A stretch of DNA of 64,000 nucleotides from Tetradesmus obliquus. Its lineage: Eukaryota > Chlorophyta > Chlorophyceae > Sphaeropleales > Scenedesmaceae. Of this stretch, positions 1 through 64,000 are shown piece after piece. The stretch spans positions 2,640,501 to 2,704,500 of the forward strand of contig CP126201.1 in NCBI GenBank assembly GCA_030272155.1, in the 5' to 3' direction. The translations under genes were made by a program, and so were the position numbers. How positions within the stretch are numbered: the stretch's first letter is position 1; each line of letters begins with the position of its first letter. The notes beneath the pieces are model-generated. The model had not been told where the DNA came from. It did no database searches and saw only the letters and a list, made by a program, of their open reading frames with translations.

Positions 1-3000
1 AGCAGCAGCAGCCAGGTCCATCATTGGCACCTCCCTGAACGGCAGCTGCACCAACTTCACTCAGTCTGACTGCCTTGCTTGTGCCCTTGCTGCAGAACCG
101 CCTCCATGTCCTCTGCCTCCCTGGCAGCAGCAGCAACTGGTACTTGCAATTTGAGAGGATAGTTTTTTTCTAAAGCCTACTTTCCTGCTTGTGCTGCAGA
201 ACTGCTTCCATGTCTGCTGCATCCCTGGCAGCAGCAGCAATGTCCTGGTCCGTCACCAACACCTCCCTCAACGGAAGCCGAGCCATTTTCACAGACCGCC
301 TGGAGGGGCGCAACATAACAACCAGCAAGCTGCTCAGCAGGGCTGTAGGGTTCTTTGTGGCGCCCCGGGCTGGGGCGTACAGCTTTGCCATGATTGGTGA
401 CGACCTGTTCCAGCTGCAGGGCACATGGCACAACGTGAGTGGTGTGCATTGCCCCTGCTGTTATGCTTCAAGTATCCTTACCTTTTTCAAATTGCCTGCT
501 GCTTACTCGGGTCCGCTGCTTGGAGTTTTTGCGTTGCAGGATTGGTACGTGTGTTGTGCTTGAGCTACCTGCAAAACCAGCAAGCTGCTCAGCAGGGCTC
601 TAGGGTTCTTTGTTGCGCCATGGGCTGGGGCGTACAGCTTTGGAATGATTGGGGATGACCTGTTTCAGCTGCAGGGCATATAGCACAACGTAAGTGCTGT
701 TCAGCTGCACGTTTGCTGCTGGTTGACACAGGGTTTGCTGCTATGGGAAGGTTTGTAGGGTAGCAAATTTGCGCTGTGCTGCGGCTATGTAAGTAGACAG
801 TAGCGGTTACGTGTCACTGGCCCACCTATAGGTTTGCTGCTGTTATCATAGTGTTGTGTTGCTGCTGGCAGTCTTGCGGATTCTGGCTACTGTTGCGTAC
901 ATATGTATCAACAACTAGAGGTTGTCTCCTGCTGCTGCTGCTGCTGCTGCTCCTGCTCCCTCCCCTGCATCACAATCTCCCTGCAGGGCTTTGGCTAGCA
1001 GCAGTCATATTTCATCACTGCCAAAGGCCCCGCTCTGCAACTGTCACATGCATCTGTTGTAGCATGTTGACGTTAATTTGCTGCTGCTGCTGTTGCTGCT
1101 GCTCTGCAGGGCTGCGGCTGGCAACAGGCAAACCTCATCGGTGCCAAAGGCCCACTCAGCAGCTGGTGTGCTCAGTACGAGTGAAGCTGCAGCAAAAGGC
1201 AGCTGTGGGGACGGGGCTGCTTGCAGCGCCAGCCCTGCAGTACAGCTGCAAGAGGGGCAGCCGCTGCTGCTTGCTGTCAAGCACTGGAATGGTGCAGGAA
1301 TCGGCTCCTGGCAGGTGATTGCCTGTGCTGTCTCCCTTGGGCAGTGGCCCGAACTTTCACACCTAGGGCAGTGACGCAATTATCTTCAGCAATGCACAGC
1401 TGCAGTGCATCACCATCTCTGCATCGCTGCTAACGTGCATTGCACTGGCATCTGATCTCCTGTCCTGCAGGGTTGCTGTGTCAGGCTCCTCTTTCCTTGT
1501 GACGTTGGCATATATGCATCTCACACACTGTCATGCTGTGTTTCTCCACCGACTTTGTTTGCTGCAGGTTGGTGTGCGGGTGCCCAGCAGTGACCCAAGC
1601 TTTTTCAGCATCGCAGAAGTGCAGCGCCTCACCATACCCTACCGCCAGCTGCAGCACCGGCAGCTGCTGAGTGTGCTGTTCAGGCCTCCTGCTGACGCAT
1701 GCATAGAGGTCATTCTCAAAGTGGCCACTGCAGGAACAGCAGATACAGGAAGTGATGCTCAGGGAGCAACAGGTGGCGCAGCAGGGGCTTTGGCTGCTGC
1801 TGCGGGGCCTTCAGCTGCTGCTGCTGGGGCACTAACTGGCGTGCTGGCAAGGCTGAACGACCCTCGGATAGGTGAGTGGGCGTGCCTAGATTCAACAGCT
1901 GTTACGCAGCTGTGCGCTGCGCTTTGTCAGACGAAAAGGCCTTGCAGCAGAAATTCATGTGCAGACAAGCCATGCACTTCAAAGCGTGGTGCATGGCACC
2001 GCATCAACCAGTGCTTGCTGTTGTGCTGCAACTGCTCTGTTACAATGAACATGCTGCTGCTGCTGCGCTGCTGTTGCTGCTGCAGGTGTCAACCTGACCA
2101 TCCGAGGCACTCAGATGCCCACCTTCCCTCCGAACATCAGTGCCACTGCACTACAGGCAGCAGTAGTCAAAGCAGTCAATGGATCAGCAGTTGGAGTTGA
2201 GATCATCCAAAACCCTGCGGTCGGAACGCTGACGTACCGCCTGCTGACCAACCGTACTGCCTTTCCTGATGACCTGTCACCTGCTGGCATCAGCGTCCAG
2301 CTTGTTGTACTGCCTGGCAGCAGCAGTACAAGCGGCAGTACAGCTGGCAGCAGCAGTATGAGTGGCAGTACAATCACAGTCAGCAGCAGTACACCTCCCT
2401 ACACCTGCCTGAAACTTGGCACTGAAGCCTGGATAGTGACCTACCTCAATGCAGATGGCAGCAACAGCAGCATGACAGTGTATGAGGAGGTGTGGCAAAA
2501 CATAACTGTCTCTCCTGATGATGCCGCCACCACCACCAACGCCAGCAGCAGTGATCCTGCAGCCAGTACAACACCTACAAGTCCGCCTGTAGCAGACGGT
2601 ATTGTTGTTGATGTTCCGGCGGCTATTGATGCAGAGTGTCATGCGGAAATGGGGTACACTGCCGAGAAAGGGACACAGGCAGGTGTTGCACTGGACTGGA
2701 CAGGGAGGGATCAGGCGCACTGGATTGGACGCAGTGGCCTCCTTGGTACTCAACACAATCCTAGCAGCAGTGAGGGATATGCAGGCAGAATGCAGCAATG
2801 CAGGATTGCACTGGCTGGTTAGTAACAGAATAACATAACACACAGACAAGACAGGACAAGGAGCTACACCGTAGACAAGAACAAGAGGTAGCGACTGCCA
2901 GATTCACGTAACAAGTTGACAGTACAGCAGCAGACACAGCAGCTGTACTCTACCAGCAAACAGCGCAGATCAAGCGGAGCTGCGCTGCACACTGGGGCAG

Positions 3001-5985
3001 GGTCATAAACAAGCAGTGAAATGCAGGGGCTCTGACTGCACGATACCACTCTAGCAAGGTGACACACTGCAGCAGATCGACTGTAGAGATCTGCCGCAGT
3101 ACCTGACACTGACAATGACACTGAAGAACAAACAAGACTGACGCAGCACTGTCACACCAACCGTGGAGAGAACCAGACAAGAAGAAGCAGTTGACCGAAG
3201 GACCAGAAGACTCGACAAGCCAGACACCACTGAGCACTGCGTGCAGCAGACAACAGTGATGTCAAAAACACACAGAGGGAGAGATCTACTAAGCACAGCA
3301 CAGAACAGGCTGCGGGCAGCACAGCAGAAGATGATCTGCTGCACTCAAGACAAAGGCAATGCAACTAAGCAGGTTTAGACGGTGCTGTGCCTGCAAACTG
3401 GCCTACACAGGGAAGGTATTACGAGCAACCTGTGTGGCAGTAAGATGGTACAAAGATCTGACAGTGCTGGGTCTGGATTAAGCCCAAATTGAGAGAGAGA
3501 CAAGTTGAGAAACAGCAGCTGTGCACTTGCTGACCAAACAGTACGGATAGAAGCATCTGCTGGCTGGCAGTCTGGCTCAGAATAGGCCTTTTGACAGGGA
3601 GGCATTACGAATAACCTGCTGACTGCCGATACAGCTGATGCGAGAGAAATCAAGCTGCACAGCAAGGGCTGTTATGGCGCTTGCCGCACCGTCCAGCTAC
3701 TGGACACAAAAACCCACGTACCGGCCTGCCCAATACCGTAGGCCGAAGCACGCTATCGTAAATGAGGTTGGTACTGCAATATGCAGGAGCATCGATACAC
3801 AGGAGTGGTGTAATTAGTTGTTGGGCCGGGTTGCTGTCTCTCCTTATATAGGCAGCAACCCACCGACATTGAATTACTCGCAGGCCTCCTGTCGGTTCGC
3901 TCTCCAGCTTCCTCTTTGGATTAAGTCAGCTTCCGCGTCCGATAGGCTTAAACCCAAAGACAAGCTTCCGCTACCCATTCCAACTAATTACACCAATCCT
4001 GTGTATCGATGCTCCTGCGTATTGTAGTACCAACCTCTTTTACGCTAGCGTGCTTCGGCCTACGGTATTGTGCAGGCCGGTACGTGGGTTTTTGTGTCCA
4101 GTAGCTGGACGGTGCGGCAAGCGCCATAGTGGTAGCTGAGACGTCCAGCTACTGGACACTGAGACGTCCAGCTACTGGACACAAAAACCCACGTACCGGC
4201 CTGCACAATACCGTAGGCCGAAGCACGCTAGCGTAAAGGAGGTTGGTACTACAATACGCAGGAGCATCGATACACAGGATTGGTGTAATTAGTTGTTGGG
4301 CCGGGTTGCTGTCTCTCCTTATATAGGCAGCAACCCACCGACATTGAATTACTCGCAGGCCTCCTGTCGGTTCGCTTTCCAGCTTCCTCTTTGGATTAAG
4401 TCAGCTTCCGCGTCCGATAGGCTTAAACCCAAAGACAAGCTTCCGCTACCCATTCCTGAGCTGCGTTGACCTCGGTCCAATGTATCCCTTTACTGCCTAG
4501 TCAGACAGTGGTGTGCCACAGGCGGACAGTCTGAGACCAGAAGTTAAGGGAGGGAACACCGTAGAACACGCTGCACACTCTTGCATCCATGCTTCCATGC
4601 ACTGAAGCCCCTACTCTGGGAACAGATGCTGGGTGGAGTGAGTCAGGACTACTGTGACTGTGTCCTCCCAGCGTCTGTCCACGTCAAGTAGAGTGTGCTG
4701 CCTTGGCACTTGCAAGGATGACAATGCTGTCTCTGTCACATGCTGCAGCACCATGACACCCTCCCCTCTCTATCGTCACACGCATGCTCTTGCGGCGGCT
4801 GTTGATAGCACCTGAACCACCGCCTCCCACCCTTGTCCCTCTTGCTTACATGTGCCCAGGAGCAACCTTTGCACTGCCAACTGCATGTACGCTGCATGTA
4901 CTGCCCTGCTGCACTGGCCAGCAGTGCAACAGAGAGGCATGCTTGTGGCGTGCCACTGCTTCACCCATCACACCTGTGCACGTGCATCCAGCAACATGTG
5001 CTCAGCATCCTCCCGTAACGTGCACTTTGACCTGCTGCTGCTGCTGCCCCAATAGCAAGGACACCAGCATGTGGCGTGACGCCTGCCTTGCTGGTGCAAC
5101 TTTGGAGGTGGTAGCCGATCTTGACAATGGCGATGATGTCACGTTTGGCCACCACTTTCAAAGCTGCACCTCCATGCATGCACACAGCATGACACAACAC
5201 ACATTTGCATTGGTATATTGTTTATACATGTGGGTCCTGGCACAATCTTGGATGGTATGAGCTACAACGTTGTTAACAGGTTGAACACAAGGTCTGAGAC
5301 CAGAAAAGGAGAGTGAGCACCGCAAAACACAATGCACACCCTTGAGCACCAATTCTCTCATGTTATATTCAGAGACGTCTTTTCGTTTGTTATAACCAGA
5401 GACGTCTTTTATTGGTATATTGAATCCTTTGCACACATACTGCCATGCTGCCGCTGCTGCTACGGCTGCTGCTGCTGCTGGTGCAGCTGCTGCTGCTGCT
5501 GCTGCTGCTGCTTTGCAGCAAAGAAGCCTACGTGTGGCGGGACGGTTACCTCACTGGCCACTCCTGGATAATCTGCTGGCCAGCAGAGGCCTAGGATGCA
5601 GTGACACATATGCACCGAGCAACAAGTTGACATTTGCAGTCGAATAATTGCATGCACACTGACCTGCTGTTGTTGTCGTTGCTGTTCCTTTGCAGCAAAG
5701 AAGCCTGCCTGTGGCGTGACGGCTACCTCACTGGCCGCTCTTGGGTCATCTCATGGCCAGTAGAGGCCCGAGATGCAGTGACACATTTCACTGCAAACCC
5801 TGAACCTGGCGGCTATGCCCCTGGCTACATGATGACATCAGCTGGGCTGCTCAACCTGGCCAGCCCGCCGCTTTCAGGCGCTGTTGCCGTGGGGTTTGGG
5901 GCTTCCTGCGCCACGGTGGAGCTGCGAGTGATCGAGTCTGCGTATGGGCTGGCTAACAAGCTGAACAGCATGCCGGGCGTCAAAG
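1..5985 (+). CDS. PA14-domain (fibrocystin/PKHD1L1-like) protein, 5' partial, multi-exon
   Basis: Supportable exons are 200-434, one ending about 1312 (start uncertain, 1108-1248), 1568-1871, one starting at 2086 and open to 2820, and 5696-5985. The first carries GFFVAPRAGAYSFAMIGDD, which resembles the core of PA14 domains as found in fibrocystin-like proteins. The exon ending at 1312 contributes a PA14-like closing strand (VQLQEGQPLLLAVKHWNG). Exon 1568 joins it in phase and continues VGVRVPSSD. The exon from 2086 is rich in Ser/Thr/Asn with several N-glycosylation sequons, as in an extracellular protein. The last exon encodes a Trp/Gly-rich domain (about 96 aa) starting KEACLWRDGYLTGRSW. 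The gene begins left of the window, and its 3' end after 5985 was not found. Function is probably cell-surface carbohydrate binding or adhesion (inference). The exon structure between 2500 and 5696 is unresolved because a foldback element and exon echoes lie there. Confidence 0.5.
572..691 (+). repeat. Exon echo of the PA14 exon
   Basis: Direct partial copy of the 3' half of exon 200-434, followed by its own GTAAGT donor at 692. It has diverged and carries an in-frame TAG near its end, so it cannot replace the real exon. A second, 5'-end copy lies at about 94-137 and a further fragment at 1-55. Confidence 0.75.
2840..3672. other. Low-complexity intronic or intergenic stretch
   Basis: CA/GA-rich sequence (repeated ACAAG and CAGCA words) without a convincing exon on either strand. 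Two related words, GGGAAGGTATTACGAGCAAC near 3410 and GGGAGGCATTACGAATAAC near 3598, suggest an old internal duplication. The ORFs here look like products of base composition. Confidence 0.4.
3673..4128. mobile_element. Foldback (MITE-like) element with ~148-bp terminal inverted repeats
   Basis: Left arm 3673-3820 is repeated as an inverted copy at 3981-4128, with only scattered mismatches, around a 160-bp centre (3821-3980). The arm begins TATGGCGCTTGCCGCACC and contains the near palindrome GTCCAGCTACTGGAC. The centre holds a TATATAG motif between short inverted GGGTTGCTG/CAGCAACCC words. No ORF of transposase type is present, so it would be a non-autonomous foldback element. No clear target-site duplication was seen. 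Confidence 0.75.
4143..4456 (+). mobile_element. Second, truncated copy of the foldback element
   Basis: Left arm and centre of the 3673-4128 element repeated in direct orientation with few changes. It lacks the outer TATGGCGC segment and the whole right arm; similarity stops at 4456. It is preceded by two tandem copies of GTCCAGCTACTGGACAC (from 4143 and from 4166, with a GAGAC linker). Confidence 0.75.
4921..5610 (+). repeat. Three decayed echoes of the PA14-gene exon 5696-5985
   Basis: Segments near 4925-4960, 5056-5120 and 5515-5605 repeat the 5' part of the exon at 5696, keeping GCAG acceptor-like sequence and the LWRD...T-type start (for example VWRDGYLTGHSW-like at 5530). They carry frame breaks. 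All lie upstream of the real exon and keep the acceptor side. Confidence 0.6.
5225..5288 (+). repeat. Dispersed ~60-bp repeat, copy a
   Basis: Begins TACATGTGGGTCCTGGCAC and ends with a CAGGTTGAACACA-like tail. The same unit occurs at 26509-26573 (-), 30315-30376 (-), 34039-34090 (+) and 34986-35040 (+). Function is unknown. Confidence 0.65.
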
Positions 5986-9670: not shown

Positions 9671-10962
9671 ATGCTCGTGCGGTGTGGGCAGGGTCGCCCA
9701 AGCAGTGCAGTGCAGCAGCAGCAGCAGCAGCGGCAGCAGCAGCTGTCAAGACCATGCAGGCCACGCTTGTTGCTGCCAAGGCCAGTGAGGAATTTCAGGG
9801 CTGCTGCGAGCCGCAGATCGTTGCTAGTAAGGGCGAACTATGACAACTTTAATACGGAGTGAGTGCACGACTGGCACTCGACCTGCTGCAGCTGTGCACA
9901 CAAATCATATCAGCACCACATCACTCAGTAGTTGCATCAGCACCTGGGGGCTGGCAGCAATGCTGCTGTTTGGAACCACCCAAACTTCACAGGCGTCGCA
10001 GCAGCAGCTACCACTGTGTGCACATGTAGGTTGCGGCGTCACAGCAACTGCCCAATGACAGCTGCACCACTTGAAACCAACTCTTTGCAACTGCTGCTGC
10101 TGCTGCTGCTGCTGGTGGTGTTAAACCCATGTTCAACTCATGTTTGACCCATGTTTGACTCGTTTTTCTGGCAGCCTGCTGGGTCCACACTTCCACAATC
10201 GTGCTCGCATCAGTGAGGAGGTCATGCAGTCGCTCATGGAGCTGCCAGGCACCACCGGCATTGCTGAGCTGCGGCAGAGAGCGGAGGACCTGACAACGTG
10301 GAAGATCAGCCTGCAGCGAGGGTGGGTACATCAATGCATGTGTTGAACTCTACGTAAGCACCCGGACAGTATACTTGGGCTGGTTTGTGTAGCTTGTGGC
10401 ACCAGTTAGCACAAGGAACTGTGTGTAGGCAGCGTGCAAACAGCAGCAGCCGCCATTCAAATTCAGTCCGCAGTCGCTCATGGAGCTGCCGGGCACGACT
10501 GGCATTGCACAGCTGCGGCAGCGAGCAGAGGACTTGACCACTTGGAAGATCAGCCTGCAGCGAGGGTATGTTCCTTTTGTTTGCAGTATGGCTCTTCTCA
10601 GTTTTAAGCAGTATGCTTGAGCTTGGGTGGCAAAGTGTTGCCTGGCACTGCCTGCACAAGCAACTTGTGGTGTGCTGCTTGGGTTTTTTTACAAAGAGCA
10701 GCTGCCAGCGGCATGGAGCTGCCTGCAGGCAGCACGCAGCACCGGCAGCTGTCATATGATCAGCCATTTGATGACTGGCAGCTGTCCCTGGCGTGCTAGT
10801 GTGGCACGCAAGTGCACACATTTGCTTGAGACTCGGGTGTGTGCTGCATCGCTGCTGCTGCTGCTGCTGCTGCCTGCAGGGTGCTCCCTGAGCCCGAGCA
10901 GGTCAACTGGCCAGTGGAGCCCTTCAAGACAAAGTTCATCGTGAGCCATTAGGTGCAAGCAC

Positions 10963-11008: not shown

Positions 11009-12259
11009 CCAGCATTGATAAGGAGTAGCTGGTCCGCCGTGTTGGGCAGGCAGCATGAGCGCTAGCAACAGCGACAGTGGCAGCAGCACGCTCTTGCTGC
11101 AACTCTACTCAGAAGTATTGCCAGCCGTATTGCCACGCCGAGCAGCCGCAGCGGCAGTTGCGGATGGCACAATGCTGAGGAGTAGCCAGGTGCCTTCAGC
11201 AGCTCCTCAACACACTGAGAATCCGTGCTGTGCTGTCATTGCAGGACGCGCTGCGTGCACTTGAGATGCCCCGCTTCACGCGGCGCTACCCTGTGGTGCT
11301 GGAGACGCTCATGAAGCAGATGCTGGCCATGGTGCACGTGAGTGGCGGTGGAATGTTGGTTCAGTGTTTGTAGGCAGGCTGCATACTGTTTGTACCCAAT
11401 GGGTGGTGCTGGAGACGCTGACGCAGCAGATGCTGGCCATGGTGCACGTGAGTGGCGGTGCAATGTTCTGATCGCAGGGCGTTGCGCAAGCAGGCTGCAT
11501 GTGTAGCAAAATCAGCCAGTGATGCTAGAGACGCTGATGAAGCAGATGCTGGCATTGGTGCATGTGTGTGGGCAGCATCTCTTGTGTGAGCTGGCGCGGT
11601 GCTTGCACATCTCATGCTGTTCGGCCATTGTCGTCTGCTTAACAGGATTGGGCCAAGCAGCATGCACAGTCGCGCATGTGTGCACGATGTCACGATGCGC
11701 GCAAGGCGTTTGCAACTTGTCATGTATCTTGCAGGACTTTGAGCTGAAGCTGCTGGAAGCTGAGGCCAAGCAGAAGCAGCAGCAGCGCCCGCCTCCGCAG
11801 CAGCAGGCGCAGCCGTCGCAGCAGGGCCAGCAGCAGGATGAGCCCGGGGACCAGGATCAGGAGCAGCAGGGTGAGGAGGGGCAGGAGGGAGGTGCTGAAC
11901 AGAGCCAGGAGCTGACGCAAGAGATGCTGGAAGAGGTGCGGCGTTCAAACAAGTGCTGTTGTTTGACCAGGTTGACCAATCAGACAAGTTTGACCAATGA
12001 CCAGTGTGACCGTGCTGTATTAAAAGGTAGTTGTGCTCTTAAGTGGACAGCGATTGAATCCTCAGACAAATGTGTGAATGTTAGTTGTGTTTGGAACAGA
12101 TCTACAGGGGTGGAGCGAGCCAGCCTGCTACTGATGCAGCTGGCTCTGCACCTGCCACTGACATACTCCAACACTAAGCAGGACCAGCAGGGGGCCCTGC
12201 CACCTCACATACGCTGCTGCCACTCCATACTCACTGCTGCTGCCGCTTCATACTCACTG

Positions 12260-12296: not shown

Positions 12297-15200
12297 ACTT
12301 GCACCTGCACCAGGCCCTGAAGGACTCCATGAACCAGCAGGGCCAGCAGGGGCAGCAGGGCGGCAAGCAGATCCAGATAGGGCTGGAGCAGATGGAGGGC
12401 AAGCAGGCCGGCAAGGGAGAGTGAGTGGCTTGTAGTTGCTGCTAGACCGATGGTCATTTCAGCACCACACAGCACCTGTAACGCTGACAGCTAGAGACAT
12501 GGGGCAAGCAGGCCAGCAAGGGAGAGTGAGTGGCTTAGTTGCTGCTGAACCGATGGCTCGCCAGTACAACAGCATCTGTAACGCTGACAGCTAGATACAT
12601 CATTCTGCTTCTCGCTCAGAGGAACCTGTCTCGGTAGGTTTAGTTGACACTCTCAAGTCCATTCTAGCCCCTGGTGCCATACAGCAAGGCCGCTACCTGG
12701 CTGGCTGTGGCTCATGTTGCAGCTGAATCTCATTGTCATCATGTCTTTGTTCAGTGCTGTCATTGCTGCTTGTGGGACGCAGCGAGCAGAGGAACCAGGA
12801 CGCTGACGTGACACTTCAATGTCTCCTATGTCATCACCTTCAACTGTTATGTGTCTGCTTTGTACATGTTTGCTGTTCCCACTGACATGACGCAGTGAGC
12901 AGACCAATGAGGAGGCTGACGAGGCGCTGTGTCCCTTGCTTGTGTGCTTTCTCACTCTGCTTATCATCGTGATGTCCTTGTGTTGCTGCTGCTGCTGCTT
13001 GTGTGACTCAGTGAGCAGACCAATGAGGAGGCTGACGAGGCGCTGGCCCAGGAGATTGAGAAGGCTGCTGAGCAGATCGTGAGCGAGTTTGAGCAGGGCA
13101 TGCAGGAGGTGATGGAGAACCTGGAGAAGGCGCAGCTGGCCTTCGACGACCTCTCAGGTGGGGCGGCGTGCTGTGTGCTGTGGTGTGTGCTGTGAGCTGT
13201 GTGCTATGTTTTGCGCTGAGAACCTAGGGAAGGCGCAGCTGGTCTTTGACAACTGCTCAGGTGGGGTGGGGTGCTGTTTGCTGTGTGCTGTGTGACGTGT
13301 GCTGTGCCGTGCTATTTGGTGTGCTGTGCTGTGTGCTGTGCTGAGAACCTGGAGAAGGCGCAGCTGGCCTTCGCCGACCTCGCAGGTGAGGGCTGTGACA
13401 TGTGGAACTGTGCAGGATGATGAGCAGCTGTGTTGTGTGTATGTACTTATGTGCTAGCTGCTCAGTGTGGGGAGATCAGCTGCAACAACAGCTGATCTGT
13501 AATGCATGCCCTAATTTTTATGAATCTCTGCACTGTCGCGCGAGCTGCTGGACGAAAAGAGGATGGCTTTGTGCGGAGTCAGGGCACCTGGCAGCTGGGT
13601 GATTGTGTCAGCTCTGAACGTCTGGGCAATGCGTCATGTGCATGGCAATCTCTGTACTGCTGCTTAACTTAAGAGGTGAAGAGGGCTTTGCCCTCAGCCA
13701 GGACTCTGACAGCAACGCTACGTTTCTGACATTTTCATTCTGGCACCATTGTGCTGCTGTAGAGCTGCTGGAGGGAGAGGAGGGCTTTGCGCTCAGCCAG
13801 GGCACCTGGCAGCGTGACGGTTGGCGCGAGCTGGACGGCCTGCCTTGTTCAACTGATCCGCTGTCTGTCATTGCTGCACCTGTGCTGTTGCAGAGCTGCT
13901 AGAGGGTAAAGGGGGCTTTGCCAGGGCACCTGGCAGCGCGACAGTTGTTTGAGATCCTTGCACTCCATCACCTGACAACTTTCTTATTGCTTACGCATAT
14001 TTTGTACATGCAGAGCTGCTGCAAGGTGAAGAGGGCTGTGCGCTGACCAGGGCACCCGGCAGCGTGACGGCTGGGTGACATTCCTGCACCCCTCATCTGA
14101 CACACTGTGTACTGCTCTACATGCAGAGCTGCTGGAGGGAGAGGAGGGCTTTGCGCTCAGCCAGGGCACCTGGCAGCGGGACGGCTGGCGCGAGCTGGAC
14201 GACCTGCGCAAGAAGCTGGAAAACCTCAAGGAGCTGCGGGAGCTGGTGCGCAGCCTGGGTCGCAGCGGCGGCAAGGGCCCACTGCGCAAAGCACCCGAGG
14301 AGGTGGGTAGGACGACCGTGCAGTTTTGGTCTTGTTGCTTGCTGAAGCATTATGAAATGCTGTAATTCCTATTGTATGACAGCATGTGACAGGTTTATTG
14401 GTTTGGGTTGAGTATTGACCGGCGCATGTTGCCTTGAGATGGCGTCAGGAACGTGCCAAACGTGAATGAGCTGCGGGAGCTGGTGCGCAGCCTGGGCAGA
14501 AGCGGCGGCAAGGGCCCGCTGCGCAAAGCGCCTGAAGAGGTAGGCGCAGCTGAAATGTGGTGTGTTTGTTGCTTTCTTAAGCACTACACCAGGTATGAGA
14601 CTTGCTCTATGGCAGCTTGTGTCAGGAGGCTTTGGCTTTGGGCTGTGTGTTGACCGGCGCAAGCCGTCTTCATATGCCGCCAGGAAAGTGCTAGGTTTAT
14701 ACATTTGAAGGAGCTGCGGGAGCTGGTGCGCAGCCTGGGCAGGAGCGGCGGCAAGGGCCCGCTGCGCAAGGCACCCGAGGAGGTAGGCGCGGCTCCTGGT
14801 AGGGTGCCAGGGGGCGATGTGTGCAGTTGTGGGGTGCTGCGGTTGAACGCACAGAGGTCGGACGAGGTTAGGCTTGGTTTTGCTCAATTGCTCTAACTCG
14901 ATCGCGAGCTGGACGACCTGCGCAAGAAGCTGGAGAACTTGAAAGAGCTGCGGGAGCTGGTGCGCAGCTTAGGAAGGAGCGGCGGCAAGGGCCCGCTGCG
15001 CAAAGCACCTGAACAGGTAGGCACTTGGATGCAGCACAGATGCAGCCGCACCAGCGGCTTGTGTTGCTTGTGGTGGTAAGGTGCATGCGCCGCGCGCAGC
15101 CTGTTTTGGGGTGTGCCAGTCCGTAACATCGCAAACAGGCGTGAGTTGGTGTGGCCCTGCTTTGCACGGATTCACCCAGCTCATCGCCATCCCTACTGCG

Positions 15201-15389
15201 TCTAGCTTTTTGCGGTGACCTCCACTGTGCATGTGGGGTTCGTCGGCCGCTGCTGCTGCGCCTGTTGCTGTAGCTGGGGTCTACCAGGCACCCACCTGGT
15301 GTTATGCGCTCCCCGCTACAAACAGAAGAATTCCGGGGCGTAGCGCGCAGCTGCCCCAGACCTTTGTTGTGTATCTGATTCGCAACGTG

Positions 15390-15422
<33 letters not shown>

Positions 15423-18167
15423 AGCTCGAGTCCACCAGGCACCCGCCCGGCGTCGTGCGCTCCCCGCTGCAACCAGAAGAAGTCAGGGGCCTGGCTCGAA
15501 GTGGCGACCTGTCACGCATGCTGCCCAGTGAGATGGCGCTGCTGGCACATGGCTGGCCTCGCAAAGTGAAGGTGCCGGCAGCAGGGCAGGATGCAGCAGC
15601 AGCCGCAGCAGCAGTGGGTCAAGCTGGCGGTGGCGTTGCTACAGCCAGCACTGAGGATGCGCAGTTAATTGAAGAGGAGTACTTCCTGCCAGGTGGGGCT
15701 GTGGTGATATCTTGTGGTATCTTTTGCTGTGTGCAACAGCAGGGTCGGCGCTGTCTGCGAACCTGAGCGCCCGCTGATTGCCTTGTTGCTTCGCTCGTGT
15801 TAAAAACGCTGCTGTTCGCTTTACAAAGCTGCGCTGCATGACATCTGAGCATATGCTTCATGTTGTGTATGCTCATGTCTGCGCGCAGGCGCGCATGCGG
15901 CGCGCATGCTGCACCGCGTGCGCCGTGCGGAGCGCATGCTGCTGAGCTACGAGCGCTGCGGCTGGCTGGACGACACACCCAGCAGGCTGACTGGGCGGCA
16001 GGTGGGCGGGGCTGACATGTGCTTCTAAAGGAAAGGGATGGTTTGATTGAGCGCCTGAAGCAAGATCCCTGGCGGATAACAGTTTGAATCACTATCAACA
16101 ATAGCAATTTCTGGCGCCAAAGGCCGTTAGTGCTGCAGCACCGGCACCGAGCGCTGCGGCTGGCTGGACGACAAACCCAGCAGGCTCACCGGGCGGCAGG
16201 TGGGTGCGCCTGTGCGATTTCATTGGACATGTTGGTTCAGTGCGTGCTCAGCGTGACAAGCGTCGTGGACAAGCAGGTTGGGGCCTTATCTCTTGTTTGG
16301 TAGCGTGACATGAAAGCGTCCTCTAGCGCAGCATGGCAGTGAGGTGCGTGGCGTCTCGGGTTCCCTCCTTATAAACATTGGTTCTCAATCATCTCTGCTG
16401 CTGTGGCTTGCAGGAAATTCGCCCTGCAGCAGAAATGGGCCCCATCATCCTGTGCCTGGACACCAGCGGCAGCATGCGGGGCGCGCGTGAGGTGGTGGCA
16501 AAAGCGCTGGCGCTGGAGTGCATGCGTGGCGCGCACCGGCAGCAGCGGCCGTGCTACCTATACGCGTTCAGCGGGCCAGGTGGGTTGTCGCAACGGGCTG
16601 GTTGATGAATTAAATCGTGAAATTGTTGATCAATGCTTTGTCAGTTGGGTTGTGGCTTAGTTTTGCAGCTGCTTATTGACGGCTGCTCTGTGGCTAGCTG
16701 CAGCTTGTTGCGCTATTGGGTGCTGTGGCCGCGGGATGAGGGCTGGGGCTGGAGTGCATGGGGGGTGCATACCGGCAGCAGCGGCCGTGTTACTTGTACA
16801 CATTCAGCGGGCCAGGTGGGTCGGGATGTGGGGCTTGGGTCTGGCTGCTTGCAAACTCCCTTTATACCAGGTGCCTGTGGTGGCGTATGCCGCATGAACA
16901 CACCGTGTAACCCCTCTATCCCTTGGGTGGGGCTTGGGCCTGGCTGCGCTGCCACTGGGTGCTGACAGAAGCGCAGCATCTGCACAGCCAAGGCTACAGT
17001 GCACGCAGCCTGCTTTGCTCTGCATGTTGAGGGTCTGGTCGCCGTGCGTACGCAGCCTGCTCTGCATGTTTGGGGTCAAGTCGTGCATACCTGTTGCCGG
17101 CCTGGCTGTTAGATGCCGTGCCTACACCCTGTGGTGCCTTGCCAAACATCATTATTTGCTACCCACAGGCCCAGCCGTGGTCAAACCCTCCCTGCAGCTT
17201 CTCACCATAAGTTTCGCTGATACTGGATGTGTGTGTGTGTGCCTTGCTGCTTGGCTTGGTTTTGTTTGCGCAGACCAAGTGCAGGAGCTGGAGCTGTCTG
17301 TGGACCTGCCCAGCCTTGAGAAGCTGCTGGAGTTCCTCAGCTGCTCCTTCCAGGGCGGCACTGATGTGGACAAGCCGCTGCAGCTGAGTTTAGAGCGGCT
17401 CCAGAAGGACGAGTGGGCCAAGGTGAGGAGAATGGAGTTGATGGCTGTTAGTAACAGCTGATTACTTTTTGAATTGGGTTTTCTGAAATGTAAAATGGGG
17501 CGGCACGGATGTGGACAAGCCGCTGCAGCTCAGCCTGGAGCGGCTGCAGAAGGACGAGTGGGCAAAGGTGAGGGGGTTGTTACATTGTCAGTAACATTGT
17601 GAGGAGGTGGCGTGAGTTCGATGTGCAGTCATGCAGCTGTGCAGTGCAGGCGCTGCTGTCTGCTGCACAGCAGACGCGGCTGTGCATGCGCACCGCAGCT
17701 GCTTGTATATTAAGCAACTGAACGATTGCGTGCACCGCTGCTGCTGCTGCCGCTGCATGCATCAGGCGGACATCCTCATGGTTACTGACGGACAGATTGC
17801 ACCACCAAATGAGAAGCTGCTGGCCGACATTGCTGCTCCGGCAGACCACGTCGAGCGTGTCGCCCTGGTTGCTCATGACGAGCTAGCCGGATCTCATGTG
17901 TCACCGCTCCCACTTCCTCCTCCTGCTGCTGCTGCTGCTGCCGCTGCATGCATGCAGGCGGACATCCTCATGGTGACTGATGGCGAGATTGCACCACCAA
18001 ATGAGAAGCTGCTAGCTGACATTGCTGCTGCTCATGATGAGCTGGGCCTGGAAGTGCATGGGCTGCTGGTCAGCAGCCAAGTCAGTGACAGCATGGAGAA
18101 GCTGTGCACGCACCTGCACGTGTTCAAGTCCTGGAGCGCTGTTGGCGCCGAGAGCTGGATGTACTGA
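9671..18167 (+). CDS. ViaA-like von Willebrand factor A domain protein, probably plastid-targeted
   Basis: Thirteen exons in phase give 674 aa: 9671-9858, 10175-10321, 10880-10940, 11245-11337, 11735-11935, 12314-12420, 13012-13157, 14127-14302, 15425-15692, 15889-16001, 16414-16579, 17274-17422, 17958-18167. The N-terminus is Arg/Ser/Gln-rich without acids up to about residue 58, like a chloroplast transit peptide. A charged helical middle with Q/E runs follows. The C-terminus is a VWA domain with MIDAS motif LCLDTSGSM, the later FQGGTDVDKPL (MIDAS Thr) and DILMVTDGEI. The string YERCGWLDD before the VWA and the Gly-Gly-Thr-Asp block resemble bacterial ViaA, partner of the MoxR-type AAA ATPase RavA. 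A role with a MoxR-like ATPase in metal insertion or protein remodelling is inference. Nearly every exon has intronic echoes; the terminal exon exists in five copies, so the stop at 18165 is one of several possible ends. Confidence 0.8.
10474..10566 (+). repeat. Echo of ViaA-like exon 2 with donor
   Basis: Near-complete copy of the 3' part of exon 10175-10321 (SLMELPGTTGIAQLRQRAED and on) with its own GTATGT donor and an upstream CCGCAG. The sequence is open, but use from CCGCAG would join out of phase with exon 1 or exon 2. A more decayed trace follows at 10712-10790. Confidence 0.75.
11401..11560 (+). repeat. Two echoes of ViaA-like exon 4
   Basis: 11401-11448 and about 11517-11560 repeat the 3' end of exon 11245-11337 (VVLETLMKQMLAMVH) with donors GTGAGTGG and GTGTGTGG. 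Confidence 0.7.
13216..14075 (+). repeat. Echo cluster of ViaA-like exons 7 and 8
   Basis: 13216-13260 and 13345-13387 repeat the end of exon 7 (ENLEKAQLAFDDLSG) plus donor. Segments at about 13541-13605, 13665-13720, 13757-13845, 13893-13945 and 14013-14072 repeat the start of exon 8 (ELLEGEEGFALSQGTWQRDG), most with a pyrimidine tract and GCAG or an AG before them. The copy at 13757 also holds the following WRELDGL. Confidence 0.75.
14456..15016 (+). repeat. Three echoes of the 3' half of ViaA-like exon 8
   Basis: 14466-14540, 14708-14783 and 14904-15016 each repeat ELRELVRSLGRSGGKGPLRK and the following APEE/APEQ, then a GTAGGC donor. The open frame is kept in all three. The third copy also includes the preceding LDDLRKKLENLK. 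Confidence 0.8.
15274..15351 (+). repeat. Upstream echo of ViaA-like exon 9
   Basis: Decayed copy of the start of exon 15425-15692 (STRHPPGVVRSPLQPEEVRG) just upstream of the real exon; the frame is broken. Confidence 0.65.
16146..16815 (+). repeat. Echoes of ViaA-like exons 10 and 11
   Basis: 16146-16200 repeats the end of exon 10 (ERCGWLDDKPSRLTGRQ) with donor GTGGGT. 16744-16815 repeats the end of exon 11 (CMRGAHRQQRPCYLYAFSGP, diverged) with donor GTGGGT. Confidence 0.7.
17497..17571 (+). repeat. Echo of ViaA-like exon 12
   Basis: Copy of GGTDVDKPLQLSLERLQKDE and WAK with a GTGAGG donor, directly downstream of the real exon 17274-17422. Confidence 0.8.
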
Positions 18168-34985: not shown

Positions 34986-35040
34986 TACATGTGGGTCCTG
35001 GCACCATCTTACATGTATGAGCCACAGCAGGGTTTAACCT
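34986..35040 (+). repeat. Dispersed ~60-bp repeat, copy c
   Basis: TACATGTGGGTCCTGGCACC family, ending GAGCCACAGCAGGGTTTAAC. It lies in the putative intron between FolD exons 5 and 6. Confidence 0.65.
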
Positions 35041-47299: not shown

Positions 47300-49513
47300 T
47301 CTTCCCCTTGGCGCCGGGGCAGGAAGTGAAGTGGAGGGTAGTGACAACAAGCAGCATAGCCAGCAGCAGCTGCAGCAGCCAAGGTGGTAGCGTGCCCTCA
47401 GCAGCTGCTGGCACACATGAAAGCACCGCCACGCAATCAATGCAGGACCAGCAGCAGGAGCAGCAGCAGGAGCAGCAGCAGGAGCAGCAGCAAGAACAGC
47501 AGCGAGAACAGCAACATCAGCAGCAGGAGTGGCTGTTTGATGCAGTGGCTGTCTGTGTGAGCATCTTCAGTGAACCAAACCTGCCTCAGGTCAGTCAATG
47601 CAGGCATCCCTGTACAATTGCGTCCCATTACACTCAAAGTGGTGCTGTTTCTGCTGCAAGTCTGCAATGCTTTCAAAGTTGTGGCTGCTGCAGCGCATAA
47701 CATGTTTAGTATCCTTGCACTGCAACACACTGCACTGCATTATACTCTGCCGCGGCCGGTGTGCTGAACTTGCTGGGGTACAGCTGCACAGCCACAAGCT
47801 GTGCTGAAGTAAGCAGCAGGTGCTGTTTCAAGCAGCCAGCCAACTCACTGATCAACTGCCCACATTCGCTTCTGCAGGTGCCTGGCATGGCCGGCTGGGC
47901 TGGCTTTGCAGCTGCACAGCCACAAGCTGTTTTAAAGTAGGGTTATTCACCTATCAACAGCAACCAACGGCTTCCTTACTCCGTGACCTCTGCTTGGTTC
48001 TGCAGGTGCCTGGCATGGCTGGCTGGCCCGGCAAACAGCTGCACAGCCACAAGCTATGCTGTTCCAAACTAGGGTGCAAAACACCATTTCAAGCAACCAA
48101 CTGGCAACCTCCTTACTTCCGTAACCTGTCCTCTGCTCTGCAGGTGCCTGGCATGGCCAGCTGGCCTGGCCTGCAGCTGCACAGCCACAAGCTATGCTAA
48201 AGTGCAGTTGCACGCAACCGTCTCAGTAACTTTGATGCATACGTATTGTTCAAATTTTGCTGGTTTGCAGGTGCCTGGCATGGCCAGCTGGCCTGGCCTG
48301 CAGCTGCACAGCCACAACTACCGCAGCCCTGAGGGCTTTGCAGGGCAGCGCGTGATGGTGGTGGGCGCATCCTTCTCAGGTGGGCTTGCCAGGGGTGCAT
48401 GTGTTGTGTATCCCAGAGTTGATGATGTGTATGTTCTGTGTGATGCAACCCTGGACGCGTTGTGTTGCAGCACGCACAACAGCCCAGACCAGTTGTTTGC
48501 ATGCATGCTGTGCAAGCTCCAGAGATATGGTGCCGTCAGCTGTACCTCAGGTCTCAGAGTATTGAATAAAACCGGTTTCGTGTGGAACTGTTGAACGGGT
48601 GCTGTCCATGGCTGCAGGCGAGGAGATTGCACGTGCAATCGCGTCACATGCGCAGCACGTCTACCACTGCGCACGCACCTTCACAGGACCTGGCACAGCT
48701 AGAGAGCAACCAGGAGCACCCCAAGACATCGACAACATCAGCAGCAGCGGCAGCAGTGGCCTGGTACATCAAACTGCACTTAGTCCGGAGCAAGAAAAGA
48801 TGTGCCAGCAACAGCAGCTCGGCTCTCAACAGAGCGGCACTCTGCAGCAGCCAGAAGAATGGAATCCACATGACCAAGCAACAGCAGCTGCAGCAGCAGC
48901 AGCAGGGGTGCCGCCAGCTCCCGAGCCCCGCAGCAACATGCAGCGGCTGCCAATGCTGCAGCAGCTGCTGCCTGACGGGGCAGCTGTGCTGCAAGGTGGG
49001 CAGGTGCTGCGGGGGCTGGATGCAATCGTGTACTGCACCGGATACAGGCACACCTATCCTTGGCTGGAGCACCTGGGCCTTGTAAAGACAAGTGAGTGGA
49101 GTACAAGTGCTGTACATGGGCAGTGATTTGCGCCTTAGGATATGCCGGCTGCCTGGATGCTGTTGTGTACTGCACTGGCTACAGGCACAGCTATCCTTGG
49201 CTGGAGCATCTGGGCCTTGTTGAAACCCCATGAGCCTTGTCTGGCTCCTTAGTGGGTGGGCTTGTGGCCCTACTTTGGTAACTGGAAACAAGTGAGTGTG
49301 GTACACATGTTGTGCATGGGCAGTGTTTTGCGAGCTGGTATAAGCCTGGTGCCTGCCAAGCTTGTCTTTTGCTGCAACTGCTGCTGTTGTATGCAGAAGT
49401 CGGCGCTTTTGCTTGTACGGCAACGTATATTTCTTACATGCCGCTGCTGTATCAGCACACCTGTTGCTGCGGGCTGTTGGTCTTGTCCTAGTCCGCGTGC
49501 ATAAGCCAACAAC

Positions 49514-55125: not shown

Positions 55126-55188
<63 letters not shown>

Positions 55189-58118
55189 CACTTTCATGTC
55201 AGCCGAGCTGGGCAACGAGGTGGGCAGCAGCACTGCGGTAGGCCTGACTGTTAGGTGCTGACAGCAGCAGCACATAAGCACAGCAGCAACAGTGGCAGCA
55301 GCAGCAGCAGTGCGGCAGACGCGCCCGCATCCACATCCGCAGTTGCAGGAGCAGCCTCAGCTGCAGCGCCCGACACAGCAGCCATAACAGCAGCAACAGC
55401 AGCAGCATCACATCACTTGTGGCAGCGGCTGCTGGGCAGTTGGTGGCCCGCACGTCTTGTTGCCAGCCTTGTGCACACTGCACATCATATATGACTTGCT
55501 TCCTGTCCTGTCCCCCCAACCTGACATGCACAATGCATTTGAAACTGAAACATCTGCAGCCCAACTTCTACGAGGGCATCTACGGCAAGAGCAGCAAGGA
55601 TTACATCGCCTGCTGCTTCGTGAACGACTGGGAGCGCTTCGTCAAGGCGCTGTCCTGCAAGAACCCAGCGCAGTTCTCCACATGCACGCCCGGCCAGTTT
55701 GCAGGTGCGCAGGCACACAAGCAGCAAATGTGAAATTATGTCCGCTGCGGATGGTGCGAGGCAGCCAGCTTTCGCCGGTTGATTAGTTGTGAAGTGGCTC
55801 AAGTCCAGACACCGTGCTGCTCTGCAAGCGACAGCACCGCTGCGGCAGCAGTCAGCAGCAGCAGCAGCAGCTGCAGCACTGCATTGCCACTTGCTTTGTA
55901 CTTCAGCAGAGTGGCATAATTGGATCACCTGCTTGCTGCATTGCTGCCCGCTGCAGGTCCCGTGTGGGGTCACGTCAACATGTTCCCTCGCACCATGGAG
56001 TGGTTCCTCAAGTGAGCAGCTGCGCTGGCGTTTGGCACTGCACCTGTACTGCCTGTTGCTTTTGGTTGTTGAATGCTGTGCTGTGTACACATGCGTGCTC
56101 AGCAATCCCTGCGGAAACCTAGCTATTATGATGTGAATCACAGCACAGCACAACACCAGCCTTGCGGCACTGCGGGCTCATCACATCTGCTTGCGTCACT
56201 GCACCATTGCAGGGTGAACCACCCCTATATGAACCTGGTGACTGTGCACTGGTACAAGGCACATCTTCCTGAACTTGTGGCAGCACTGCGACTGACACTG
56301 CGAACATGCCTGCTTGCCTCTTCTGCACCTTGCAGGGTGAACTATCCCTACATGAACCTGGTGACCGTGCACTGCTCTTCTCAACGCCTCTTGCCAATGC
56401 TGCGTCTCCTTCACTTTGTGCTGCAGGGTGAACTACCCCTACTTGAACCTGGTGACGGTTCACTGGTACAAGGCGCGTACTCACCCAAGTTAAGGCAGCG
56501 TCCGACTGACACTGTGATTGTGCCTGCTTGCCTGTGCTGCGTCTCTCACAACCCCTCAGGGTTAACTACCCCTACATGAACCTGGTGACGGTGCACTGGT
56601 ACAAGGCACATCTTCCTGAACTTGTGGCAGCACTGCGACTGACACTGCGAACATGCCTGCTTGCCTCTGCTGCGCTTGGCACGGTGAACTACCCGTACAT
56701 GAACCTGGTGACTGTGCACTGGTACAAGGCACATCTTCCGAACTTGTGGCAGTACTGCGATTGACACCGTAAACATGCCTGCTTGCTTCTGCTACACCTG
56801 GCAGGGTGAACTACCCTTACATGAACCTGGTGACGGTGCACTGGTACAAGGCGCGGCGCGAGGACCAGAACACGGTGCAGTCCCTGCTGGCGGAGGGCCC
56901 GGTGCGCACTGAGATGGCCAACCTGCGCAAGCTTGTTGAGATCAGCAGGCGGTGAGTTGCGGTTGATTGTTACTGCTGGTGTCAGGGGATGGTGCAATGG
57001 GTTAGCCAGGTGCAGCGGGTCGCACTGAGATGGCCAACCTGCGCAAGCTTGTTGAGATCAGCAGGCGGTGAGTTGTTCAGCGAGGCTGCGGGATGTCATT
57101 TCACGTTGTTGTTTGGGTGTGGTGTTCATGAATGTGGCCCACATGCCAGCACTGGAAGCGCTCTGTGTGTCTTCTGGCAAGGCTGCAAGCACATCTGGCA
57201 GTGTTGCTGTCACTCCATGGTCCACTGCTTTGTTAAATGTGGCGGCCGGCAACCTTGCTTCACTGCAGGAAGGTTGCATTGGTGAGCTGCATTACACGCT
57301 GCCCGCACCCTGCTGTCGCTTGCGCCCTCGCTGCCTTGCTTGTGCTTACAATGCATGTGTTGCCGCCCTCACGCTGCAGGTATGGCAAGGACCTGCGAGT
57401 GGCAGAGATGAACACCATCAGCAACAGCGGCCGCGAAGGCCTCAGCGACAGCCTGGCAGCAGCACTCTGGACCCTGGATGGAGCCCTAGAGGTTGCCAAC
57501 ACCGGAGCAGTCGGTATCAACCTGCATTGGGGAGACGGCTTGGCCCTGTATGCTGCATTACTGCGGCAGAAGACCGGCGCCGCATACGTCAAGCCTACGT
57601 ATTATGCATACCTCCTGCTGCAGATGGCGCTGGGATCGGGTGCGCAGCTGGTAAAGCTTGATTTGCAGGCGCTGCCGGGAGCCAAGCTAAAAGTGTGGCC
57701 GCTGCTTGATACAAAGAGCGGCGCAATGCGCATTGTGCTGATCAACAAGCACGCTACAGCAGCCGCCGGCATGTCTGTTCGGCTGCCAGATGACGGCTAC
57801 GCAGATGGGAAGCTGCTGCGGCTGCTGGGCAAGCGGGGGTTGGAAGATGAGTGGGGTGTTAGTTTGGGAAATATGACATATAACCTTGGCGGCCAGGTGT
57901 TTGGTGATCCTGCTGGAGAGATCATTGCTAGGGAGGAGGCAGCTGCAGCTGCGGGGCCTGCGGCTGGTGCGAATGCAGGGGCAGTGGTGACGGAGGCCGG
58001 CAGCAGCAGCAGCAGCGGGGCAGCAGCAGCAGCGGCTGGCAAGCCAGGCGTGAAGTACACGGTGATCATGCCGGCTGGATCTGCTGCGTTGCTGGTGATC
58101 CCTAAGCAGCCCAAGTGA
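53609..58118 (+). CDS. Glycoside hydrolase family 79 (heparanase-like)
   Basis: Eight exons in phase give 597 aa: 53609-53666, 53835-53908, 54185-54635, 54960-55084, 55560-55704, 55957-56011, 56805-56951, 57380-58118. The N-terminal HAAWIVLLGLSAYAVALANA is a plausible signal peptide, so the enzyme is likely secreted or vacuolar. GH79 signatures: KTFLGISHEW at the first barrel strand, GGPLVVRIGGGSTDQ, the acid/base Glu in FELGNE, continuing across the intron as PNFYEG, and the nucleophile Glu expected in RVAEMNTIS. The C-terminal beta-sandwich (VWPLLDTKSGAMRIVLINKH) follows. Members cleave heparan sulfate or plant glucuronides; the algal substrate is unknown. An Ala/Gly/Ser insert (57935-58045) splits the last beta region. 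The last part of the gene is duplicated downstream. Confidence 0.87.
55127..55235 (+). repeat. (CAG)n tract followed by an echo of GH79 exon 4
   Basis: A ~20-unit CAG run (55127-55188), then 55196-55235 repeating the end of exon 54960-55084 (MSAELGNE) with the same GTGGGC donor. Confidence 0.85.
56213..56735 (+). repeat. Five upstream echoes of GH79 exon 7
   Basis: Copies start near 56214, 56335, 56427, 56561 and 56684, and the real exon at 56805. Each begins with G-GTGAACTACCC (or CACCCC) and encodes VNYPYMNLVTVHWYKA, after a pyrimidine tract and, in most, an AG (GCAG/TCAG; the fifth reads GGCACG). Between copies the intron also repeats (GACACTGCGAACATGCCTGC). None has the exon's 3' end or donor. 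Confidence 0.9.
57018..57069 (+). repeat. Downstream echo of GH79 exon 7
   Basis: Near-identical copy of the exon's last codons (RTEMANLRKLVEISRR) with the same GTGAGT donor. Confidence 0.9.
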
Positions 58119-61876: not shown

Positions 61877-61894
61877 CATGTTTTTTTGTTGTTT

Positions 61895-62880: not shown

Positions 62881-64000
62881 ATGCAGCGAATGTCTGGGCT
62901 GTTGAGGCCTGTGGACAGGACAGGCTTGCGACGAGCTGGTCATGCCGCGCGAGGCTTGCAGTCGCAACATCACATGCGTTCAGCTCTGCCACGATACAAC
63001 AGCGCAAGTCACGGGCGGCAGAGCTTGCTGCAGTGCCCGCATGCAGTGCAGCCCAGCCAGTCTCTGCACAGCACTGCTGGGAACGGCAAGGAGCAGCGGA
63101 TCAAGCGCTATGCAGGCCTTACTGCGGATGATTTCAGGTGCAGAAACGTGTTGGGAGTTGACTGGGCTCCTCCTAGCCAAGCACTGTACCACGCAACTGC
63201 AGTTGTTCCGTACCTTTCATCTTGCTGTGCTTCTGCTACTGCTGCTTTTGCCGTTTGCTTGCGTGCTTGCTTGCTGGTGTGCTTGATGTTGCGGTGCTGC
63301 TGCTGATGTTCCTGCAGGCATCCTCTAGACCAGCATAACACCAGCCTCATACAGGCGCTGCCTGGCATGGACTTTGTGGCAAAGACTCTCATGGGTGAGG
63401 GCAGCAGCAGAGAGCCAGTGCAGCTGCGGCGGCAGCAGCAGGGGCAGGATCACCATGAACCAGCTTTGGAGCCATTTTCAAGTTGAACGCCAGCAGGGTG
63501 ACAGCAGCCGATCCAGCCCGCTTGGCGCATGGCAGCTCACAGCAGCATCAGCATGTGGCGCGGCAAGGCGCCATCGTGCGTCTATGCTTGCAGCGGCTCT
63601 TGCACCAGACAACCATGCTCCGCCTTCACATGCCGCTTTGCCCTGAAGCAACTCCCACGCATACCTTCAAACAATCAACCAGCAGCCGGCTGTGGTGTGT
63701 CTGCGCTGTGGTGCAGGCCCTGTTGCTGAGCAGGTGCTGCTGCTGGAAAACATCGCCACGTCCATCAAGACTGGCCCGGACCAGCTGCCCACAGTGCACA
63801 ACCTGCTGCTGGAAGCTGTGAGTGCACTGCTAGCTGACAGCCAGCTTCTGTGTGCTAGCTATCTACTGCACCAACTATCAAGCTGTTGGAAGTGGCAGTG
63901 GCAGCAGCAGCAGCATCTGCGTACACAGCACAACCTGCTGCTGGAAGCTGTGAGTGCACTGCCGGTTTATACCTATATACTACAACTACTGTAGAGCATT
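62881..64000 (+). CDS. M48-family metallopeptidase, 3' partial
   Basis: Exons 62881-63137, 63318-63394 and 63717-63817 join in phase; the gene runs off the window. The basic, Ser/His/Gln-rich N-terminus up to residue ~75 looks like an organelle transit peptide. Then KRYAGLTADDFRHPLDQHNT, SLIQALPGMDFVAKTLMGPV, EQVLLLENIATSIKTGPDQL and PTVHNLLLEA match the N-terminal part of M48 (Ste24/HtpX-related) peptidases of plants and cyanobacteria (LD...T..L..lPG.......). The HExxH catalytic motif would lie beyond the window, so the call is from the N-terminus only. Confidence 0.6.
63917..63951 (+). repeat. Echo of the M48 exon end
   Basis: CACAGCACAACCTGCTGCTG then GAAGCT with donor GTGAGT repeats the end of exon 63717-63817 (VHNLLLEA), 134 bp downstream. 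Confidence 0.85.

Follow-up and report, generated by a model that had tools for sequence, protein, structure and literature searches.

Introns of the green alga Tetradesmus obliquus carry direct copies of the ends of their own neighbouring exons

Introns of the green alga Tetradesmus obliquus contain partial copies, in direct orientation, of the ends of the exons that border them, together with the adjoining splice signal. Such copies had been described in an earlier note on a stretch of 64,000 nucleotides of this genome (assembly GCA_030272155.1, contig CP126201.1, positions 2,640,501 to 2,704,500 of the forward strand; hereafter the window, in whose coordinates features are given), and the phenomenon is confirmed here, also outside the window. 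The reading that we favour, with a probability of roughly 0.55, is that the copies are old tandem duplications in which the exon part is kept alike by renewal from the constrained exon, gene conversion being the probable means.

The comparison set comprised 314 kb of a single assembly (104.66 Mb in 17 contigs), made up of the window and 250 kb outside it, the sampled loci being 10-20 kb long and named in the style of L003 or L017. The orientation of repeats outside the window was determined on 20 stretches of 10 kb (200 kb), at least one from each of all 17 contigs. Repeat pairs were taken from self-BLAST with short tandem repeats masked, at a threshold of at least 40 bits and a separation below 600 bp. 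Gene models came from a small unsupervised hidden Markov model (HMM) trained on the 314 kb, which gave 561 exons and 496 introns, with AG before and GTG after most donor borders and acceptors ending in GCAG. In the trained profile the acceptors are preceded by a TGC/CTG-rich tract, and the window, with a GC content of 56%, is very rich in CAG/CTG runs. The models chain neighbouring genes, keep some copies as exons and add low-complexity exons, early rounds having over-split exons; for the EIF3L and FolD genes these faults were removed by hand before alignment. Pairs whose partner was more than 5% predicted exonic were left out of the border counts, a filter that drops real copies, such as most of those in EIF3L.

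Local repeats are almost exclusively direct, as the earlier note had claimed for the copies. Pairs less than 600 bp apart numbered 73 direct to 1 inverted in the window and 161 direct to 0 inverted in the 200 kb outside it, and beyond 2 kb in the window the two orientations were about equally frequent. The 314 kb hold 241 direct pairs, of which 53 are adjacent (no more than 3 bp between the partners) and 186 have gaps exceeding 20 bp. Across the whole set, separations gather near 120 bp (peak at 100-140 bp) and, to form a second peak, near 240 bp (220-260 bp). Ninety-two pairs span a border, 87 of them directed into the intron. Altogether 96 copies were located at 61 of 992 predicted borders (55 borders under a stricter match rule); the 61 copy-bearing introns among the 496 have a median length of 468 bp, against 209 bp for the others.

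Copies differ in density among loci (chi-square 60.1, 22 degrees of freedom, p 2e-5), and local repeat pairs are uneven too, with at most one pair in 5 of the first 20 loci and none in L003, L008 and L018. Within the window, exon-containing direct pairs number 23 in the viaA gene, 8 each in EIF3L, FMO and the GH79-like gene, 5 in FolD, 2 in the first gene and 1 each in CCDC40 and the last gene, with none in MYND, BTB/BACK or RBFA. The unevenness described earlier, with no copy in MYND and one in CCDC40, is thereby reproduced, and the earlier figure of about 60 copies in nine genes was roughly right, a hand count giving some 50-55 in eight genes.

The association with exon borders was measured against a null in which the repeat pairs were circularly shifted relative to the exon map. 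Gapped pairs spanning one border with the non-exonic partner on the intron side numbered 69, compared with 19.1 after shifting (maximum 31 in 300 shifts), and pairs with an exon-side partner 5 compared with 13.2. The exon-anchored class, extending no more than 10 bp into the intron but 18 bp or more into the exon, held 36 pairs against 2.8 (maximum 9), and its mirror, the intron-anchored class, 2 against 3.0. Divided by source and over 500 shifts, the exon-anchored pairs were 15 against 1.0 in the window (maximum 4) and 21 against 1.7 in the outside loci (maximum 9), so that the excess of exon-border matches in self-alignment, which the earlier note had named as its check, is present both in the window and in the 250 kb outside. 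Because this excess survives circular shifting, the border rule is not a by-product of dense introns, and intron density alone is ruled out as its cause.

The rule also emerges from protein searches that are independent of the HMM gene models. The VWA protein of the window is 99% identical over the whole query to P0241 (OEZ85_005847, T. obliquus). In tblastn searches of the window with P0241 and the relative P0242, P0241 outlines a VWA/viaA-like gene of 13 exons at 9.8-18.2 kb, the first of which is entered part-way because the stretch searched starts inside it. Five P0241 hits were discarded as low-complexity, four on the opposite strand and one at 24% identity. What is left beyond the exons is 20 partial hits with P0241, two overlapping hits being taken as one, and one at 17763-17903 found with P0242 only; 18 of these 21 start or stop within one residue of the first or last residue of an exon, in keeping with the claim that copies retain either the exon's 3' end plus donor or the acceptor plus 5' end. 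Four of the 18 copy the 3' end of the gene and not a donor, and the three hits that break the rule correspond to residues 44-78, 283-294 and 310-349. The rule is also inexact among 18 adjacent tandem pairs, in which the copied unit extends 80-407 bp into the intron, so that some units carry much intron.

How far homology extends past the border separates two populations of pairs. Of 30 gapped pairs with at least 88% identity, 25 reach no more than 10 bp into the intron, the median reach into the exon being 42 bp; the 38 gapped pairs below 88% have a median reach of 20 bp into the intron. With pairs aligned on the border, the match of 30 gapped donor pairs exceeds the consensus level as far as about +8, falls to background at +9 and is slightly raised further in, and 24 gapped acceptor pairs match clearly above background to about 7 bp and weakly beyond. 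In the 43 pairs that run at least 30 bp into the intron, mismatch by codon position is 0.071 (first), 0.064 (second) and 0.143 (third), and the intron value is 0.137. These pairs behave as neutral duplicates would, with a drifting copy and an exon that varies at third positions alone. For 42 border-bounded pairs, with little or no intron homology, the corresponding codon values are 0.074, 0.054 and 0.170, and an indel lies in the exon part of 31 of 115 copies. The stretch over which gapped pairs still match is the one under constraint in the real exon and at its splice signal.

Simulated tandem duplications, placed on real borders with codon positions 1 and 2 and six splice-site bases frozen and assuming uniform ages, random breakpoints and neutral third positions, do not reproduce this edge. 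At 88% identity or above, homology ended within 10 bp of the splice site in 1.4%, 1.9% and 4.4% of simulated pairs at indel/substitution ratios of 0.1, 0.3 and 0.6, compared with 25 of 35 observed (11 of 11 in the window, 14 of 24 in the sample). The ratio measured in 22 non-exonic pairs, just 0.10, lies at the low end of the simulated range, and fast intron indels are accordingly rejected as the cause of the lost flanks. Since simulated neutral duplicates rarely lose their intron homology, either the exon part is kept fresh or copying stops at the border. Comparison of copies with one another, where neither partner is constrained, gives a similar picture. In 69 such comparisons from 26 arrays (10 from 12 hand-listed candidate borders in the window, the other 16 from the HMM), identity was 0.856 in the exon part and 0.689 in the intron, the exon part being higher in 61, whereas neutral simulation with a similar detection filter gave 0.880 and 0.867, with the exon part higher in 53-55%. 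One part of these duplicates is far less diverged than its own flanks, a pattern expected under concerted evolution through gene conversion.

The flanks themselves retain a trace of common origin. Similarity between the intron flanks of the main exon and its copies averages 0.680 in arrays and 0.640 in two-copy pairs, compared with 0.585-0.598 for unrelated introns, and sharing of the whole unit, intron included, is seen in the 18 adjacent border-spanning pairs and on average in arrays. Taken singly, 8 of 41 border-bounded pairs exceed real introns at p<0.05 and 33 do not, and 12 of 24 chosen cases pass a laxer base-shuffle test. Local tandem duplication across exon borders, the process proposed earlier, therefore has good support as the origin of the copies, given their direct orientation, the adjacent pairs and flank similarities of 0.68-0.69, but duplication followed by decay is insufficient by itself to yield so many bounded pairs.

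We prefer to think of the copies as a product of two processes. Short local tandem duplications, with units mostly of about 100-140 bp, are frequent in the genome, and in intron-dense genes those that survive would be the ones that leave the exon body intact; in consequence the intron keeps, as is observed, either an exon 3' end with its donor or an acceptor with the exon 5' end. The copy appears not to be maintained as coding sequence and to drift neutrally, because its indels and codon-position pattern fit neutral drift. Its intron flank would drift apart from the original, while the exon-derived part would from time to time be overwritten with the sequence of the real exon; the likeliest means is gene conversion over short tracts, or template switching, between repeats that lie 100-300 bp from one another. 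As selection keeps the real exon and splice signal constant, homology would last there and end at the splice site, which is where the edge is seen. The residual ancestry of the flanks, combined with homology confined to the constrained zone, argues for old tandem duplicates whose exon part is renewed from the exon, gene conversion being the simplest mechanism.

Several observations weigh against this interpretation. The flanks of 33 of the 41 bounded pairs are not significantly above unrelated introns, including pairs with 100% exon identity. Some constraint on the copies themselves is possible, as the codon ratio of bounded pairs is 2.58 (57 pairs, 95% confidence interval 2.00-3.36) and rises to 3.34 in 23 bounded pairs at least 90% identical. 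Eight of the 69 copy-copy comparisons are reversed, and comparisons within an array are not independent. Longer introns also offer more space for copies, the gene models are mostly those of the unsupervised HMM, and no conversion event was seen in what is a single genome without haplotypes.

The main rival holds that the intron was never duplicated, and that DNA- or RNA-templated repair copied the exon end up to the splice site and inserted it nearby with unrelated filler. It would explain the 33 bounded pairs without significant flank similarity equally well, along with the 25 of 30 gapped high-identity pairs in which homology runs out no more than 10 bp from the splice site and several pairs that are 95-100% identical with dissimilar intron flanks. 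The clearest of these lies at 56905-57075, where 55 of 55 bases match around a 61-bp spacer that was unique in the genome search. We nevertheless consider this rather unlikely: donor homology above consensus to about +8 exceeds what an exon-only template would supply, main-copy intron flanks are on average above background, and no source for the spacers was found, the two that were searched matching only themselves in the genome. A related proposal, that a splice-site-delimited process recurrently re-copies exon ends, splice signal included, into the adjacent intron with filler between, is likewise doubtful; if true, introns would grow by exon-templated insertion and not by transposons or plain slippage, possibly through repair linked to transcription or splicing. 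Plain neutral duplication and decay, in which exon parts are better kept only through their one constrained partner, accounts for the orientation, the edge rule and the neutral clock of the 43 long-reaching pairs, but is improbable in view of both simulation results, the bounded fraction and the copy-copy excess of the exon part.

Selection of the copies as functional elements, either alternative exons or poison splice sites, is very improbable. The core GT or AG is kept in 80 of 96 copies, the splice score equals or exceeds that of the real site in 23 of 45 donor copies, and the T. obliquus EIF3L record P0001 contains one copied peptide; against this, use of the copied site would lead to a frameshift or stop in 76 of the 80 copies with a core site, indels interrupt the exon part as noted above, and the copies are missing from the FolD sequence P0121, whose contigs do not exceed 1219 bp. 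Least credible of all is intron gain by tandem duplication of an AGGT-containing exon segment, since no border-spanning pair among the 496 predicted introns shows the offset equal to intron length over both borders that it predicts, even though this is a known route to direct exon-intron similarity (PMC3443670). Origins from other elements were rejected. Nonlocal repeats cover just 784 of the 64,000 window bases within the 314 kb compared and two spacers were each found once in the genome (by a search that skips very common words), which tells against transposons or introners, and neither Rfam (0 matches at gathering thresholds) nor ARAGORN (0) detected structured or transfer RNA in the window. 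An assembly artefact is unlikely because most pairs are 70-98% identical and because the copied peptide is also present in P0001, a record that departs from the window sequence in at least one residue.

Several known systems resemble what is seen here. Tandem exon duplication places extra exon sequence in introns in the same orientation; the copies described here differ in covering just part of an exon and a single splice site, in commonly numbering several to a gene and in being unusable for the most part. Intronic minisatellites and tandem repeats form arrays of units of about 100-250 bp within introns, from which the present arrays are distinguished by their anchoring to the exon, evident in the contrast between the exon-anchored and mirror classes. 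Intron gain by tandem genomic duplication, as outlined in PMC3443670 and, for Drosophila, PMC2891723, shares local exonic duplication by splice signals and direct repeats across borders, but there the new intron is as long as the duplicated unit, whereas here existing introns hold extra exon ends and none passed the offset test. Concerted evolution by gene conversion similarly keeps duplicated parts alike for longer than expected, according to PMC2720389, PMC3924837 and PMC3966223; the process envisaged here would act within one gene, where an exon and the copy in its intron would be the partners and the tracts short. No account of such exon-end copies in an alga was found among titles and abstract openings of the open-licence literature, and PMC7590803 yielded no mention of introns, exons, tandem repeats or repetitive sequence.

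The copies fill introns with strong decoy splice sites, whose use would, judging from the sequence, mostly be unproductive. Median splice scores are 5.7 for copied and 6.1 for real donors, and 3.8 and 5.6 for acceptors; the earlier suggestion of decoys is borne out to this extent, at the level of sequence. A further case is the donor-spanning array at L015:5798-6157, in which units of about 40 bp repeat an exon end and GTGAGT almost identically, placing donor sites in series. The expected confusion of gene prediction is real: the HMM used here kept copies as exons, and P0001 has a 20-residue stretch twice, a repetition absent from three relatives (P0002-P0004) and from the solved EIF3L, so that this public T. 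obliquus record stands as a warning for annotation. In one alga, then, the ends of a gene's own exons appear to supply intron sequence, with copies present in 61 of the 496 predicted introns, and introns may grow longer in this way. Should the process prove general, it could be relevant to the mean intron of 462 bp in T. obliquus UTEX 393 (57% GC), the longest of five algae in the tabulated data of PMC5966456. The copies are also a natural test bed for how splicing chooses between nearly identical adjacent sites, and they form a system in which short-range duplication and gene conversion can be counted.

The viaA/VWA-like gene, on the forward strand, carries the most copies, located by DNA pairs, protein hits or both. 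The exon at 10164-10322 (P0241 residues 23-75) has a donor-side copy at 10471-10575 (DNA pair 10226-10323/10470-10567, 90%; also a protein hit), and the exon at 11245-11337 has donor-side copies within 11403-11571, comprising a protein hit at 11403-11447 and a DNA pair partner at 11516-11571 (86%). By protein hits, the exon at 13013-13156 (residues 230-277) is copied on the acceptor side at 12897-12929 and on the donor side at 13218-13259 and 13343-13384. The exon at 14127-14302 (residues 277-337; HMM model and protein hit) is preceded by an acceptor-side array at 13559-14051, of which 13559-13594 matches an internal part, and followed by three donor-side copies at 14447-14542, 14702-14827 and 14903-15019, found by DNA and protein. 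An acceptor-side copy of exon 15422-15694 lies at 15274-15351 (protein hit). Single donor-side copies, each supported by a DNA pair and a protein hit, occur at 16149-16199 for exon 15888-16001 (residues 447-463), at 16743-16814 for exon 16405-16578 (495-518) and at 17499-17567 for exon 17273-17422 (546-568). Exon 17955-18164 has a 91% identical acceptor-side copy at 17758-17837 (DNA pair, overlapped by the P0242-only hit), and the 3' end of the last exon (residues 600-637) is present in four copies, spaced by about 248 bp, within 18314-19169 (DNA and protein).

The EIF3L protein of the window is 96% identical to P0001 over the whole query, and the residue differences suggest that the T. obliquus records compared come from a different strain or assembly than the window. 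Its model aligns nearly end to end with a solved homologue (residues 1-469 of a 471-residue query), as does that of FolD (10-295 of 300). EIF3L yields seven exon-edge protein hits, one of them weak (21 bits), and one copy by DNA only, and FolD five exon-edge protein hits. On the forward strand, EIF3L exon 22437-22606 has an acceptor-side copy at 22318-22386 and a donor-side copy at 22660-22716 (protein hits); exon 23692-23893 (P0002 residues 239-306; HMM model, solved homologue and protein hit) has three donor-side copies within 23938-24328 (DNA and protein), whose peptide is the extra repeat of P0001; and exon 25496-25677 has an acceptor-side copy at 25359-25421 (30 bp at 100%; DNA pair and protein hit) and a donor-side copy at 25924-26052 (89%, DNA only). 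Between that exon and its donor-side copy, at 25712-25845, a 33-bp unit is repeated about four times at 98%. On the reverse strand, FolD exon 36390-36491 (P0122 residues 106-143; HMM model, solved homologue and protein hit) has three acceptor-side copies at 36563-36622, 36682-36729 and 36801-36845, spaced by 116-119 bp (DNA and protein), and exon 35161-35390 two within 35476-35692 (protein hits). P0121, which matches the window's FolD gene, is probably complementary DNA, as its contigs are shorter than the gene.

The other copies listed here, all on the forward strand, lie in four genes, among them FMO and CCDC40, whose names were confirmed; the first and last genes of the window had no Pfam match. 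The first, unnamed gene has a donor-side copy of exon 200-441 at 575-703 (89%), and the sole copy in CCDC40, from exon 41860-42090, is at 42166-42223 (both DNA pairs). FMO holds two donor-side copies of exon 45674-45827 within 45955-46237 and three acceptor-side copies of exon 48271-48379 within 47870-48190 (DNA arrays), with a donor-side copy of exon 46499-46619 at 46707-46757 and, at 49153-49220, a copy of the 3' end of exon 48894-49091 that stops 8 bp before the border (DNA pairs). Just past the latter, the 61 bp at 49225-49285 are 100% identical to L016:1419-1479 on another contig. The GH79-like gene at 54.2-58.1 kb (Pfam Glyco_hydro_79n, 4.1e-06; beta-glucuronidase structures, 3.9e-24) has the longest copy array, and its match to glycoside hydrolase family 79 is unusual for an alga. 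Five acceptor-side copies of exon 56805-56951 occupy 56209-56733 (DNA arrays), and the donor-side copy at 57021-57075 is the 55/55 match, consisting of 47 exon and 8 intron bases; the spacer before it has no similarity to the other flank.

Repeats of other kinds were also seen. A short dispersed family of SINE- or MITE-like look (short interspersed or miniature inverted-repeat transposable elements), with members of about 45-160 bp that are 74-95% identical and in both orientations, occurs at 5225-5381, 26456-26583, 30309-30388, 34012-34093 and 34970-35033 and at L019:6690-6859 and L014:9295-9373; ARAGORN and Rfam gave nothing for it in the window. At 3673-4456, where no exon is predicted, a 148-bp inverted pair (96%) lies together with two direct copies of 292 bp (98%), perhaps a small fragment of a mobile element. 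Locus L017 contains a large tandem array, 5910 of its 10,000 bases lying under just three local direct pairs.

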